Positions 25,531 to 63,425 of a stretch of 64,000 nt of DNA are shown here, in pieces. Source of the stretch: Candidatus Chlorohelix allophototropha. GTDB lineage: Bacteria > Chloroflexota > Chloroflexia > Chloroheliales > Chloroheliaceae. Numbering within the stretch: position 1 is the stretch's first letter; the number at the start of each line of letters is the position of its first letter. The notes under the pieces were generated by a model that did no database searches, was not told where the DNA came from, and saw only the letters and a list, made by a program, of their open reading frames with translations. The DNA is taken from positions 2,222,934 to 2,286,933 of the forward strand of contig NZ_CP128399.1 of the NCBI RefSeq assembly GCF_030389965.1, given 5' to 3'. Both the position numbers and the translations under genes were made by a program.

Positions 25531-25740
25531 GAAGTGAAAGAAGGAAGTATGGAACAGCCCCGTTTAGAGTCTACATGGAGTATATATATTATAATAGAAT
25601 AAGCAGCAAAGAGATGTGTTTATTGGCAGAAAAGAGTAGAGAATACCTAACACCAAGCTAAATGAATTGGTTTCACTCAGCTAGAATCTTCTCAAAAAAG
25701 GCGTTTATATTTTCCGCGATAGCTATGGAAATGACATCTC
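25531..25740 (+). repeat. dispersed ~210-base repeat, copy 1
   Basis: This stretch aligns over its whole length with 36280-36499. Shared blocks include GGAGTATATATATTATAAT, CACTCAGCT and GGCGTTTATATTTTCCGCG followed by TGGAAATGACA. Conserved features are a TATAAT box, a hairpin AGCTAAATGAA...TTCACTCAGCT, and TTTCC...GGAAA near the 3' end. It lies 24 bases before the FGGY kinase start. The rest of the 25337-25763 gap is AT-rich with nothing else recognised. Confidence 0.8.
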
Positions 25741-25763
25741 AAAATTGAAAAGGTATGGTATCC

Positions 25764-27308
25764 ATGAGCGGTGAATTGGTATTAGGAATAGATATAGGTA
25801 CTTATAGCTCCAAAGGGGTCTTATGCGATGCCAGTGGTAAAGTGCTGGCTACAAGGGCAGTTGAGCATGGCTTGTCACTGCCAAAACCCGGTTGGGCGGA
25901 ACAAGATGGCGAGACAATTTGGTGGTCGGATTTCATAAAACTATGTCGCAGCCTTCCCTCTGAGGCGGGTTGTTCGCCTGAAGAAATTGCAGCGGTGGCG
26001 GTATCCGGGCTAGGTCCAGACCTCTTACCACTAGATGAAAAAAGTCGTCCGCTACGTCCTGCAATTCTGTATGGAATTGATACCCGTGCCTATAATGAAA
26101 TCGAGCAACTCAATCGCCAGTTTGGTGAGCAAGAATTATACGAATTGAGCGGGATGGCGCTCACTTCACAGGCAATCGGACCAAAATTATTATGGCTGAA
26201 GAATAATGAGCCAGAAATTTACCGTCAAACGCGCTATATAACTTCATGTAGTAGTTATCTGGTGCAACGCCTGACCGGAGAGTATGTGCTGGATTATCAT
26301 ACCGCTTCTCACTTCAACCCGCTTTTCGACATTCGTAACCTAAAGTGGACTGACCGTTTCGCAGAGCCAATCTGGGATGTAGAGAAATTGCCGCGCTTAG
26401 CATGGGCTACTGAAATTGGCGGGCAGGTAACGACGCAAGCCTCCAAAGAGACGGGGTTAAAAAGTGGTACGCCCGTAACCACCGGCACAATAGACGCTGT
26501 AGCCGAAGCGTTAAGTGTTGGCGTTGTAGAACCCGGCGATATGATGTTAATGTACGGCACTACCTTTTTCTTTATTCTGGTAGCAGAAAAGCCCGTGACA
26601 GACCCACGCATGTGGCTTACTGCTTACGCCAATTCAGGAAATTATGCGGTAGCGGGTGGAATGTCCACTACCGGCGCGCTGACCAGATGGTTTCGAGACC
26701 AACTCGCCCCGGATTTACTGGCAGCCGAGCAAAAAGGCGGCGCGCCCGCCTACGCCATTCTCAGCGAGGAAGCGGGGCATGTTCCTCCGGGCGCACGCGG
26801 TTTGCTGGTTTTGCCCCACTTTCAGGGAGAACGCACGCCCATTCATGACCCACACGCCAGAGGGTTATTCGCAGGACTAACCCTAACACATACTCGCACC
26901 GAGATGTATCGGGCTGTGTTGGAAGCCACCGCCTACGGCGTAAACCAAAACCTACAAGTAATGCAAGAGATGGGCGCAAAGCCAAAACGATTGGTAGCGG
27001 TAGGTGGTGGCGCAAAAAGCAAAACATGGCTGCAAATAGTCAGTGATGTGACCGGAACGAGTCAGGATGTGCCACAGCAAATCATCGGTGCATCTTACGG
27101 AGATGCCTTTCTAGCAGCTTATGCCTCTGGTTTAGTCAAAGATTTCGATACCCTATCAAAAGTTTGGGTGGGAACGCCTGCTAGAATCGAGCCGGATGCT
27201 AAAAATCACGCCCTTTATAACGAATATTACGACCTGTTCCTACAAATGTACCGACAAACCAGCGAAATATCTCATCGGTTGGCACGATTAGGCGCGCAGG
27301 ATTTTTAA
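25764..27308 (+). CDS. FGGY-family carbohydrate kinase (xylulokinase-like)
   Basis: This 514-residue kinase starts with LGIDIGTYSSKGVLCD, the phosphate-1 motif, and later shows AVSGLGPDLLPLD and the C-terminal FGGY signature region VAVGGGAKSKTWLQIVSDV. FGGY enzymes phosphorylate pentuloses, hexuloses or polyols. The architecture is closest to xylulokinase/FucK-like members, but the substrate is unclear. ATG 25764 is preferred over ATG 25755 because AAAGG sits ~10 bases before it and only one base before the other. It is followed 22 bases later by a HAD phosphatase, a common partner in sugar phosphate breakdown. The 210-base repeat upstream may affect its expression. Confidence 0.85.
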   Translation: MSGELVLGIDIGTYSSKGVLCDASGKVLATRAVEHGLSLPKPGWAEQDGETIWWSDFIKLCRSLPSEAGCSPEEIAAVAVSGLGPDLLPLDEKSRPLRPAILYGIDTRAYNEIEQLNRQFGEQELYELSGMALTSQAIGPKLLWLKNNEPEIYRQTRYITSCSSYLVQRLTGEYVLDYHTASHFNPLFDIRNLKWTDRFAEPIWDVEKLPRLAWATEIGGQVTTQASKETGLKSGTPVTTGTIDAVAEALSVGVVEPGDMMLMYGTTFFFILVAEKPVTDPRMWLTAYANSGNYAVAGGMSTTGALTRWFRDQLAPDLLAAEQKGGAPAYAILSEEAGHVPPGARGLLVLPHFQGERTPIHDPHARGLFAGLTLTHTRTEMYRAVLEATAYGVNQNLQVMQEMGAKPKRLVAVGGGAKSKTWLQIVSDVTGTSQDVPQQIIGASYGDAFLAAYASGLVKDFDTLSKVWVGTPARIEPDAKNHALYNEYYDLFLQMYRQTSEISHRLARLGAQDF

Positions 27309-29725: not shown

Positions 29726-30688
29726 CTATTCTTCCACTTCTCGTAAGGAGCGTCCGGTTTTATGCAAAAACACATCGTCTAACGAGGGACGGTGTAGCGA
29801 GATCGAAGATAGTGCTAATTGTGCGCCATCCAGTGTGCGCAAAATGTTGGGTAATGCTTGTTCGCCACTTTCCACATATAACCGCAAGCCATTCTCAATC
29901 GGCATTACCTCGCGCACAAAGGGTTGCTGTTCCAGCAAGCTATGCGCTTTTTTACGTGCTCCGTTGTGTGCATCCAGACCCAGTACAACCGCATCCCCGG
30001 CAATCTCGCGCTTGAGTTCGTTTGGTGTACCGTTCGCTACAATACGTCCTCCATCGATAATTGCTAACCGATCACAAAGTGCATCCGCTTCTTCCAGATA
30101 GTGAGTGGTTAGGAACACAGTAGTACCGACTTCCCGCATCTTACGCACTTCATCCCACATTCGCGCTCGGCTCTGTGGGTCAAGTCCGGTAGTTGGTTCA
30201 TCTAGAAATAAAAGGGCTGGCGTATGTACCATACCCAAGGCAATATCCAGCCGACGCTTCTGCCCGCCCGAATATCCCGAGGCGGGACGATCAGCAAATG
30301 CCTCAAGTTCTAAGTCTTTTATCAATAAGGTGGCTCTTTGTTGAGCATCATGTTTGTGCATGCCATAAAGCCGTCCTTGCAATATAAGATTCTCACGCGC
30401 AGTTGCTGCCACTTCCACACCACCACTCTGGCTCACATATCCAATGCGTTCTCGTACTTTCTTGGGTTGTTTAAGTAGGTCATAGCCTGCCACTTTTGCA
30501 CTTCCTGAGGTAGGGTCTAACAAAGTTGCCAATATTCGAAGTGTGGTAGTTTTTCCCGCGCCATTTGGACCAAGAAAACCGAATATTTCACCCTGCTCAA
30601 CACTCAAATTGACGCCTCGTACCGCCTCAACCGGTCCACGCCGGGATTTGAAAACTTTCCTAAGCTCATGTGTTTCTATAATTGACAT
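29726..30688 (-). CDS. ABC exporter ATPase (DrrA-like)
   Basis: Walker A GPNGAGKT, Q-loop, signature YSGGQKRRLDIALGM and Walker B LLFLDEPTTGLDP are complete. A ~90-residue C-terminal domain typical of DrrA/CcmA exporters follows. The frame extends to 30736, but ATG 30688 has GGAG 9 bases upstream and conserved sequence begins there, giving 320 residues. It works with the permease at 28933. The gene follows the PadR gene by 126 bases, and a palindrome at 30718-30739 overlaps its promoter region, so PadR control is likely. Confidence 0.92.
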   Translation of the reverse strand: MSIIETHELRKVFKSRRGPVEAVRGVNLSVEQGEIFGFLGPNGAGKTTTLRILATLLDPTSGSAKVAGYDLLKQPKKVRERIGYVSQSGGVEVAATARENLILQGRLYGMHKHDAQQRATLLIKDLELEAFADRPASGYSGGQKRRLDIALGMVHTPALLFLDEPTTGLDPQSRARMWDEVRKMREVGTTVFLTTHYLEEADALCDRLAIIDGGRIVANGTPNELKREIAGDAVVLGLDAHNGARKKAHSLLEQQPFVREVMPIENGLRLYVESGEQALPNILRTLDGAQLALSSISLHRPSLDDVFLHKTGRSLREVEE

Positions 30689-36253: not shown

Positions 36254-36279
36254 TATTGAAACCCTTGAATGTTACACTT

Positions 36280-36499
36280 GAAGCAGGGGAAGAAGGAAGA
36301 ATGGAACCTCGCCATTTAGAGCCTCTGTGGAGTATATATATTATAATGGAATAGGCATCAAAGATATATATATGGGCAGAAAAAAGAGGTGAGCATATCT
36401 AGTAATAAGCTAAGTGAATTTAAATCCATTCACTCAGCTTGAAAGTCCCTCACAAGAGGCGTTTATATTTTCCGCGATAACGATGGAAATGACACGCCT
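36280..36499 (+). repeat. dispersed ~210-base repeat, copy 2
   Basis: It aligns with 25531-25740. Here the hairpins are better formed: AAGCTAAGTGAAT with ATTCACTCAGCTT (one A-C mismatch), and GGCGT...ACGCC enclosing TTTCC...GGAAA (about 36458-36498). It lies between the GAPDH terminator and the hybrid kinase gene, whose start is 110 bases further on. The rest of the 36161-36609 gap is AT-rich. Confidence 0.8.
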
Positions 36500-36609: not shown

Positions 36610-39291
36610 TTGGATAGTAAGAGCCAACCCGGTCAATATGGCAAGCATAATTATTCCAGCGCACTTTCCGGTGGTAGTAAGGATGAACCTCTCTATCGAA
36701 TAGCGCGCACCGCAGCTGAGACGTTGGCTGTGCCGTTTGCCTTTATTACCCGCGATAATCTTACTTTAAGGGCATCCTATTGTAATCCTGTGATTGAAAC
36801 CTTGCCTGACCTCTTTTATTGTCAGCAGGTAATTAACACTAAAAAGCCCCTATATATAAGTGATACACATAAAGATCAAAGGTTTCCCCAAAATCCGCCA
36901 CCCACATTTCGGTTTTTTGCGGGTATTCCTCTCTTCAGCCACGATTATAATGTGCTTGGTACTTTATGTTTGATTGACCACAAGCCACGACAGCTAAGTA
37001 ATGCCAAACGCCAAATGCTGGAAGATCTTGCAGTGTGGGCGGAGAATGAAATTAACCTCCCTAAAATTAAAAAAGCCAGTGCAATGGCACGTGAAAGTGA
37101 CACCCGTTTCTCTAAGGTGTTCAGAGCTGCACCCATTCCAATTGCGATTAATTTTCTGGAATCTGGAGAATTTATTGAAGCGAATGATAGTTTTCTGAAG
37201 CTTACCGGCTATAGTCGCGCCGAATTAATGAAATATTCTATTGTAAAACTGCTGGGTAATTCTTCTAGAGAACATTTAGCTCAACTGAAAAAGTTGATTC
37301 TGGACAGTGCTTTTTATAACCATGAAGTAACTTTCAAGAACAAAAATGGCGAGTTACGTGAGGTGGTTCTATCATGCGAAGCGATAGAGATAGACGGTGA
37401 ACCTAGCTTCTTGACAATGGGTCGTGACATTACCGACGACCGTTTGTCGAGAGAAGCTTTACGACGCAGCGTAGCCACTAATCGGGCTTTGTTCGATGTA
37501 ATACCCGATTTGATGCTTAGGATTAACCAAGACGGCTTAATTTTAAATTATAAACCGTCAAAAGAATCTCTGCTTCCGGTAACCCTTGAAAACCTAATTG
37601 GTCGCACATTGGTTGATATTTTTGAGCCGGGTCTTGCTTCCGTTTATCTTTCAAATGTTCGAGAGGCGTTGAATAATCTGGAAACCCGCGTTTTTGAATA
37701 TCAACTTTTAATTGATAATAGTATTCGCGATTTTGAGGCGCGCATTGTAGTTAGTGGCGAAAATGAGACTCTGGCAATTTTGCGCGATATTACCGAGAGA
37801 AAAACCGTTGAGCGTATGAAGAATGAATTTATTTCAATCGTCAGCCATGAACTACGTACACCGCTTACCTCTATCCGAGGGTCACTGGGCTTACTGGTTG
37901 GCGGTGTGGTGGGAGAGTTGCCCGACCAAGCTAAAATGATGCTCGATATTGCGCACAAGAATAGTGAGCGTTTGGTGCGCCTGATTAATGATATTCTCGA
38001 TATTGAGAAAATCGAGAGTGGCAAATCTAGCTTTAACATGAAACCGCTTGAAATTCAGCTGCTGGTAGAACAAGCGCTAGAAGCAAACCGGGGTTATGGT
38101 GAGTTGTATAACGTTAGCTTTAAACTGACAAAGAGCTTACCGGGTGTAATGGTGTATGCCGACCAAGATAGATTAATGCAGGTACTAGCAAATCTGATCT
38201 CCAACGCCACCAAATTCTCACCCAAAGATGGTGTAGTTGAAATAGCGCTAACCAGCACGCCACATAGCGTCCGAGTGGATGTAACCGACCATGGCAACGG
38301 CATCCCTAAAGAATTCCGAAATCGCATCTTCCAGAAGTTTGCACAAGCAGACTCTTCCGATACCCGCTCAAAAGGCGGAACCGGATTGGGCTTGAGTATT
38401 GCAAAAGCTATTGTTGAGAAACTAGGCGGGATTATTAACTTTGAAACCGAAGAAGACAAGGGCACTACTTTCTACTTTGTTATTCCGGTATGGAATGAAA
38501 CGCCCGTAAACAAAGAACAACCTCAGAAAAATACTGCTGTGCTAATTGTTGAAGACGATGCCGAAATAGGTTTGCTGCTAAGCATTATGCTTAAACAAGC
38601 CGGGTTTGAAACGGATATTGCCTACTCAGCGCTGCAAGCTAGGCATTTGCTACAAAGCAAACCTTATTCCGCCATTACACTGGATGTAATGCTACCCGAT
38701 CAGAATGGGCTTTCCTTGCTGCATGATTTTAAGAGCAGCGAGGCTACCATGAATATCCCAGTGGTTATGGTTTCGGCTAAAACAAAATCAAATCAGGATC
38801 CAACCCAAAATGCGACATTACAAATTGTTGACTGGATTGATAAGCCGATTGATCAGGAGAGGTTGGTAGAGGCAGTACAACTTGCCACCAATATTTTTTA
38901 TGGTCATAAACCTAGTGTGCTACATGTTGAGGATGATGCTGATGTTTCAAGTGTGGTATCTGCCATTCTCAGCAATATTGCCCAAATTACAATTGCGGCA
39001 ACCTTGAAGCAAGCCCGACGGTTGCTCCGAAATCAGGTATTTGATTTGGTGATACTAGACCTAGATATGCCTGATGGCTCAGGATTGAGCTTGTTACCTT
39101 ATTTAAGTAAAGCGCCCGATCACAAAATTCCGGTGGTGGTTTTCTCTGTTTCTGATTTAGAAGAAGCGGTGGTAAACAAGGTTGATGCAATTTTAATTAA
39201 ATCTCGCACCAGCAATGCAGAATTAATAGACACAATTAAAGCAATTATTCGAAGGACTAGGTTCAAACACTTGGAACATAGTGTAAAATAA
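36610..39291 (+). CDS. cytosolic hybrid histidine kinase (GAF-PAS-PAS-HisKA-HATPase-REC-REC)
   Basis: The 893 residues hold a GAF domain (~25-150), PAS (~160-285), PAS-like (~290-395), phospho-acceptor H-box SHELRTPLTS (His413), ATPase domain with N-box NLISNATKFSP and G2 GGTGLGLSIAK, then two receivers. REC1 has Asp692 (ITLDVMLP) and REC2 has Asp817 (VILDLDMP). No membrane helix is predicted, so it senses a cytosolic cue. REC1 has Lys in DWIDKPID, and REC2 has Lys864 in a divergent ILIKSR context. The start is TTG 36610 with GGGGAGG 9 bases upstream. With the next two genes it makes a phosphorelay set. Confidence 0.93.
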   Translation: MDSKSQPGQYGKHNYSSALSGGSKDEPLYRIARTAAETLAVPFAFITRDNLTLRASYCNPVIETLPDLFYCQQVINTKKPLYISDTHKDQRFPQNPPPTFRFFAGIPLFSHDYNVLGTLCLIDHKPRQLSNAKRQMLEDLAVWAENEINLPKIKKASAMARESDTRFSKVFRAAPIPIAINFLESGEFIEANDSFLKLTGYSRAELMKYSIVKLLGNSSREHLAQLKKLILDSAFYNHEVTFKNKNGELREVVLSCEAIEIDGEPSFLTMGRDITDDRLSREALRRSVATNRALFDVIPDLMLRINQDGLILNYKPSKESLLPVTLENLIGRTLVDIFEPGLASVYLSNVREALNNLETRVFEYQLLIDNSIRDFEARIVVSGENETLAILRDITERKTVERMKNEFISIVSHELRTPLTSIRGSLGLLVGGVVGELPDQAKMMLDIAHKNSERLVRLINDILDIEKIESGKSSFNMKPLEIQLLVEQALEANRGYGELYNVSFKLTKSLPGVMVYADQDRLMQVLANLISNATKFSPKDGVVEIALTSTPHSVRVDVTDHGNGIPKEFRNRIFQKFAQADSSDTRSKGGTGLGLSIAKAIVEKLGGIINFETEEDKGTTFYFVIPVWNETPVNKEQPQKNTAVLIVEDDAEIGLLLSIMLKQAGFETDIAYSALQARHLLQSKPYSAITLDVMLPDQNGLSLLHDFKSSEATMNIPVVMVSAKTKSNQDPTQNATLQIVDWIDKPIDQERLVEAVQLATNIFYGHKPSVLHVEDDADVSSVVSAILSNIAQITIAATLKQARRLLRNQVFDLVILDLDMPDGSGLSLLPYLSKAPDHKIPVVVFSVSDLEEAVVNKVDAILIKSRTSNAELIDTIKAIIRRTRFKHLEHSVK

Positions 39292-50945: not shown

Positions 50946-51698
50946 TTAACCGATGATGGCGAGGAATATCTCCTCCAATGTCGGCTGTTTTTCAACATAC
51001 TCCACCTTTGCAGGCGGAAACAGACTTTTAAGCTCAGCGAGCGTGCCGTTGGCAATAATCTTACCCTTATGCAGAATAGCAATTCGGTCGGCAAGTTGTT
51101 CAGCCTCCTCCAAATACTGGGTGGTCAGGAATACCGTCGTGCCATTGTCTGAAAGCTCTTTGACAATCTTCCAAACCTCAAGGCGCGCCTCTGGGTCAAG
51201 CCCAGTAGTCGGCTCATCGAGGAAAATAAGCGGCGGTTTTCCTACAAGACTCATGGTGATGTCGAGCCGGCGGCGCATACCACCCGAATAAGTGGACACC
51301 CTCCGCTCGGCGATGGCGGTTAAGCCGAGGCGTTTCAGCAGTTCGTCCGCAATCTGACGAGGCTGATTAAGGTGCCGCAGCTTGGCAATCATGATAAGAT
51401 TTTCCCGTCCGGTCAAAATCTCGTCAACGGCGGCAAATTGCCCTGTCAGGCTAATCGACTGCCGCACATTGTCTGCCTTTGACACAACATCGAATCCGTT
51501 TACGATAGCAGTACCGCTGTCCGGTTTCAGCAGTGTGGTAAGGATTTTGATAATCGTGGTCTTGCCTGCGCCGTTGGAGCCGAGTAGGGCGAAAATAGTG
51601 CCAGCTTTTACTTGAAAATTAACTCCTGTCAACACAGATACGTTTTTATAGGATTTTTTCAACCCTTGCACCGAGATGGCGCTTCCATTTTGTGACAT
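50946..51698 (-). CDS. ABC exporter ATPase
   Basis: Walker A GSNGAGKT, signature YSGGMRRRLDITMSL, Walker B LIFLDEPTTGLDP and the H-loop TTQYLEEAEQLADRIA are intact. It is a DrrA/daunorubicin-resistance-type ATPase without the long C-terminal domain of the one at 29726. ATG 51698 has GAGG 8 bases upstream, while ATG 51704 is only 2 bases from it. It lies between regulator and permease genes in one operon. Confidence 0.93.
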   Translation of the reverse strand: MSQNGSAISVQGLKKSYKNVSVLTGVNFQVKAGTIFALLGSNGAGKTTIIKILTTLLKPDSGTAIVNGFDVVSKADNVRQSISLTGQFAAVDEILTGRENLIMIAKLRHLNQPRQIADELLKRLGLTAIAERRVSTYSGGMRRRLDITMSLVGKPPLIFLDEPTTGLDPEARLEVWKIVKELSDNGTTVFLTTQYLEEAEQLADRIAILHKGKIIANGTLAELKSLFPPAKVEYVEKQPTLEEIFLAIIG

Positions 51699-63322: not shown

Positions 63323-63425
63323 TTTCAGGGCTAATACCGATGACGCACTAGCGCATAATAGGAGGGCTACGAAGTGTCGAAGAATAGCAGGGCACCCTCC
63401 CTTCCTTACCTACTCGCCTGAACTT

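Follow-up and report, generated by a model that had tools for sequence, protein, structure and literature searches.

The locus analyzed here raises the question of what two related stretches of about 210 bases represent and why each of them stands in front of a gene on its own strand. Both lie within a 64,000-nucleotide stretch of DNA (C1:2222934-2286933; hereafter, the window) from 'Candidatus Chlorohelix allophototropha'. The closed genome of strain L227-S17 has been described as consisting of molecules of 2.96 Mb, 2.45 Mb, 375 kb, 241 kb and 55 kb (PMC10972752); the source genome used in our searches amounts to 6,086,194 bases on five replicons, including three with lengths of 2,961,161, 2,453,413 and 375,274 bases. 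The original prediction, made from the sequence of the window, was that the repeats are either an RNA element or a mobile element with a structured transcript.

Anatomy of the two repeats

Sequence alignment of 25533-25736 with 36285-36494 yielded 77.4% identity over 212 columns (E 6.6e-38), which bears out the existence of two related repeats with limits within a few bases of those predicted; similarity at the protein level carries the second copy back to ~36255. The TATAAT, AGCTAA...TCAGCT and TTTCC...GGAAA motifs are present in both copies, and both point toward a gene on the same strand. The features, with coordinates in the window, are as follows.

25533-25736, + strand: remnant 1, probable right end of a transposon of the tniQ type, ahead of the FGGY kinase gene; identity 77% with remnant 2, 81% with C2:632k
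25533-25649, + strand: tniQ C-terminus pseudogene of remnant 1, in the frame ...GTAPFRVYMEYIYYNRISSKEMCLLAEK...; tblastn with the 208-aa TniQ, aa 172-206, 69% identity
25655-25683, + strand: stem-loop 3' of the tniQ stop, remnant 1, AAGCTAAATGAATTGGTTTCACTCAGCTA; aligned with the other copies, no covariation
25684-25713, + strand: putative intrinsic terminator of remnant 1, decayed; stem broken, none called here by the terminator scan
25710-25736, - strand: terminal repeat of remnant 1, TGTCATTTCCATAGCTATCGCGGAAAA; 1 mismatch to the outer end of C2:632k; element boundary at 25736
25755-27308, + strand: FGGY carbohydrate kinase gene (PF00370/PF02782; Pfam, ORF list); ATG 19-28 bp past the remnant 1 boundary
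36255-36494, + strand: remnant 2, probable right end, flanked by the gapA terminator on one side and the hybrid histidine kinase gene on the other
36255-36401, + strand: tniQ C-terminus pseudogene of remnant 2; tblastn, aa 160-204, 53% identity, one in-frame stop
36407-36440, + strand: stem-loop 3' of the tniQ stop, remnant 2, AAGCTAAGTGAATTTAAATCCATTCACTCAGCTT; fold and alignment
36445-36472, + strand: putative intrinsic terminator of remnant 2, weakened, GTCCCTC ACAA GAGGC GTTTATATTTT; fold
36468-36494, - strand: terminal repeat of remnant 2, TGTCATTTCCATCGTTATCGCGGAAAA; 1 mismatch to the outer end of C2:632k; element boundary at 36494
36610-39291, + strand: GAF/PAS hybrid histidine kinase gene (Pfam, ORF list); start 115 bp past the remnant 2 boundary

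In the 5' to 3' direction, each repeat thus consists of the tniQ C-terminus, a stem-loop, a terminator and the transposon right end. The identity of the first part was established through a further copy, C2:632k, which forms the 3' end of a 208-aa open reading frame. This reading frame scores 30 bits against the TniQ family (PF06527; cut-off 27) and is the sole match above the cut-off in the genome; it spans only positions 103-142 of the 142 in the model, so that the N-terminal part of the domain is missing or decayed. Its C-terminus is HTH_31-like, i.e., resembles a helix-turn-helix, and by sequence the protein matches the solved structures of TnsD (8v32; E 6.5e-6) and TniQ (8fcu; E 0.0012), as well as plasmid TniQ family proteins. 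In the window copies, only the C-terminal part of this protein is matched, in frame and outside the region covered by the PF06527 model, and, therefore, the 'TATAAT box' (25590-25595 in remnant 1 and 36342-36347 in remnant 2) corresponds to the codons TAT TAT AAT (Tyr-Tyr-Asn) within ...EYTYYNGISIKEMYLL.... The box, near which the original prediction proposed to look for the start of a discrete transcript, accordingly sits on tniQ codons. A few kilobases from this only TniQ copy, at L041:7918-9921 (C2:~636-638k), lies a 667-aa reading frame resembling a WD40-repeat lipoprotein, with very regular repeats of ~42 residues.

The coding part bears the marks of decay. Between the two longest copies, C2:632k and C2:1521k, differences favor third codon positions (9/8/16), compared with 10/15/11 for the 25533 copy and 12/16/15 for the 36285 copy, each against C2:632k, where no position bias is apparent and changed codons far outnumber silent ones. 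Stops and frameshifts were observed, tniQ survives only in pieces, and both window copies are frameshifted. Given the frameshifts and the lack of codon-position bias, the window copies are dead, noncoding gene ends.

The tniQ stop is followed by the stem-loop AAGCTAA...TCAGCTT and then by a second stem with GTTTATATTTT. Folding of the second stem in C2:1521k produces an intrinsic terminator (GCCTTT CAAT AGAGGC GTTTATATTTT), and similar stems fold in C1:1926k and C2:632k; the terminator stem is intact in these three copies and broken in 25533-25736. The GAGGCGTTTATATTTT block is the predicted terminator of tniQ. The first stem of the original prediction is present and follows the tniQ stop codon.

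Ends and copies of a probable TniQ-encoding transposon

The terminator is followed by TTTTCCGCGATAGCGATGGAAATGACA, which reads inward as TGTCATTTCCATCGCTATCGCGGAAAA. When up to 3 mismatches are allowed, the genome contains the terminal 27-mer TGTCAnTTCCATCGCTATCGCGGAAAA, starting with TGTCA, at exactly five sites (0 for the reversed control), namely, in C2:632k, the two window copies, C1:1926k and C2:1521k, the last four of which carry a single boundary site. Similarity between the copies ends at the outer base of the 27-mer, and the flanks beyond it are unrelated in the four cases compared, a pattern typical of a transposon end. C2:632k carries another such site at a distance of 42 bp, sharing the 21-base core, so that this copy has two end repeats of ~20 bp with a TGT...ACA terminus. 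Tn5053-type ends begin with TGTCA. Tn7, Tn5053 and their relatives have in common that each end carries an array of ~20-bp repeats (PMC8649781). The TTTCC...GGAAA motif, originally described as a stem, is present as a motif and most plausibly represents a terminal repeat of the transposase-binding type at the element boundary.

At least ten copies were detected in the genome by searches with both window copies and the derived protein. Besides the window pair, these are C2:632k (-), C2:1521k, C1:1926k, C3:89k, C1:1048k (-), C1:1883k (-), C1:2307k (-) and C2:156k (-), the minus sign denoting the strand. The copies are truncated to different extents. Of C1:2307k, which precedes an OsmC gene, only ~45 bp surrounding TATAAT remain, with the stems absent; C1:1926k lacks the first stem; and C1:1883k lacks the right end. 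C3:89k and C1:1883k share an internal tniQ deletion, in which ...KELKSG(I)(V/I)K is joined to the last tniQ codons and the helix-turn-helix part is gone. Because this deletion is common to both, deleted forms must have multiplied, and two lineages can be distinguished among the copies, one of them marked by the deletion. The C3:89k and C1:1048k copies extend ~130 bp further, to another terminal repeat, TGTGAyTTCCACnAGAAACGTAGAA, found once in C1:1048k and twice in C3:89k by eye. The regions L044:9369-9590 and L045:8155-8375 appear to belong to a sister lineage of transposon remnants with this terminal repeat.

Outside this genome, blastn detected no copies in 60 related genomes, none of them of the same genus. 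The TniQ protein produced only distant matches among 300 genomes and none in a scan of the genome_contigs collection; complete TniQ genes were located in other Chloroflexota. The exact 21-mer was absent from the viral_contigs collection and had one match in genome_contigs, in Lentibacillus persicus, which has no visible tie to the element and was taken as a chance occurrence.

We conclude, with a probability of about 0.88, that both repeats are what is left of the right end of a TniQ-encoding transposon, Tn5053/Tn7-like in kind and no longer active. With Tn5053/Tn402-like transposons (tniABQ), the element shares a TniQ protein, ends starting with TGTCA and end repeats of ~20 bp; unlike in those transposons, no clear tniA or tniB was found in the genome, the tniQ stop lies ~90-130 bp from the end, and all copies are decayed. 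With Tn7 and Tn7-like elements, including CASTs, it has in common a target-selection protein of the TniQ/TnsD family, repeated transposase-type end sites and TGT...ACA termini, but no TnsA, TnsB or TnsC was recognized and one end is known. No intact tniA/tnsB was recognized, and a whole-genome search with Mu-transpos_C returned nothing over the cut-off and one subthreshold match, on a NusA-like protein. The rve matches in the genome fall in reading frames of 144-420 aa, and the TniB model exceeds its cut-off only in ATPases of 854-916 aa, the same model having matches in 14 of 14 control genomes. The failure to recognize a DDE transposase bears on present activity rather than on origin because the remnants themselves lack that part. 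The left end was not found in the genome: all 21-mer matches are at right ends, and the left part is lost in every copy, the restriction to right ends being due in part to the use of right-end sequence in the searches. Inspection of the flanks by eye demonstrated no target-site duplication.

The living element would have ended with tniQ, encoding a zinc finger and a helix-turn-helix C-terminus, followed by the stem-loop, the intrinsic terminator, one or two transposase-type binding repeats of ~21 bp and the TGTCA terminus. Copies of it would have been inserted at different sites, and most of each would then have been lost through mutation and, presumably, deletion, with the right ~200 bp surviving mainly just upstream of same-strand genes.

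Placement in front of genes

In eight of the ten cases, the start codon of a co-directional gene follows the copy at a distance of ~20-130 bp. The downstream genes are mutually unrelated: six encode an FGGY kinase, a hybrid histidine kinase, DUF255, MazG-like and OsmC-like proteins and a GNAT acetyltransferase, and the other two are ORFs with no match in Pfam. The exceptions are C2:632k, which is oriented toward the end of a convergent gene, and C1:1883k, with its right end missing. The expected share is 0.21 (~2 of 10; P 1.1e-4) for random intergenic points with random orientation falling within 130 bp, a null model derived from rough ORF predictions over 163 kb of the genome and from a limit of 130 bp chosen after the data had been seen; with an assumed rate of 0.35, P is 0.005.

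Both this bias and the presence of TATAAT and two stems ahead of a same-strand gene in each window copy would be expected of a structured RNA element, riboswitch-like or a small RNA, that controls the downstream genes. The other observations make such an element highly improbable. The upstream part of the repeat is tniQ coding sequence, the genes downstream are unrelated, the copy in front of the FGGY kinase gene has a broken terminator stem, C1:2307k has no stems, and C1:1926k lacks the first. Across six copies, one stem pair is changed on both sides compared with a mean of 1.6 with shuffled partners, and 78.1% of the stem cells are paired compared with 78.4% after shuffling; thus, the covariation expected of conserved stems is not seen. 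An Rfam search of the window gave no family match above the gathering threshold. The 20-base block AGGCGTTTATATTTTCCGCG, which precedes the terminal repeat, is the longest one identical in the two window copies and C2:1521k (p 0.023); the identical block at TATAAT is not significant in run-length and window shuffles (p 0.10-0.15), and a specially conserved promoter core was therefore rejected. The identical blocks of ~20 bases reported originally are present but exceed only slightly the length that would be predicted with 65-70% of the columns invariant, and, with block p values of 0.02 and 0.10-0.15, 'conserved stems inside a diverged sequence' was an overreading. Thus, of the original alternatives, the mobile element gains from the TniQ-type ends and the further copies, and the RNA element, with neither covariation nor an Rfam match, can be struck off the list; a TniQ-type transposon was probably once active in this phototroph.

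The same remnants could be distributed as observed without having any present role. TniQ/TnsD proteins pick targets, and Tn7-type insertion is orientation-specific; if TniQ guided the element to sites ahead of start codons, right end toward the gene, the 8 of 10 bias and the unremarkable conservation of the TATAAT block would both follow. Unrelated downstream genes, distances ranging from ~20 to 130 bp and the C2:632k copy facing a convergent gene's end fit such targeting poorly, and we regard it as a serious possibility that falls somewhat short of even odds. Alternatively, insertion could have separated a gene from its own promoter, with the right end becoming a new promoter or leader region. 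Retention of this kind is possible, and its chance of being the cause of the bias is about equal to that of oriented insertion; the broader proposition that one extinct transposon family gave ~8 unrelated genes their promoter or 5' leader regions, with right ends kept by selection, is tentative and rather doubtful. The C1:2307k remnant fits a promoter takeover, and, because of the placement bias, a promoter at TATAAT may have been adopted by the downstream genes. The ordinary conservation of the TATAAT block counts against such a role, and the terminator remnants between TATAAT and the gene argue against a simple promoter. The resemblance to promoter-supplying transposon ends, which lies in end fragments with a TATAAT-type box upstream of unrelated same-strand genes, is likewise qualified by the intervening terminator remnants. 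If retention caused the bias, the family, with ~10 copies in one genome, would offer a compact test case for the conversion of bacterial transposon ends into host regulatory DNA, and a dispersed set of host genes would have been rewired by one TniQ-type transposon. It is unlikely that the window copies are instead nonautonomous, MITE-like elements moved as ~200-bp units by the transposase of the full element: copy lengths are similar, and the deletion shared by C3:89k and C1:1883k indicates that deleted forms did spread, but no left end is seen 5' of the window copies and the 5' limits vary between copies.

Other similarities involving the window were also observed. The intergenic segment 20273-20328 (56 bp) is 84% like C2:1508845-1508900, another short dispersed repeat, and the 31 bp at 63360-63390 share 90% identity with L036:817-847 in the vicinity of the C1:1048k remnant. 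The 248-bp segments 30027-30274 and 51043-51290 are 63% alike (E 1e-14) and lie in coding regions, probably of paralogous genes.
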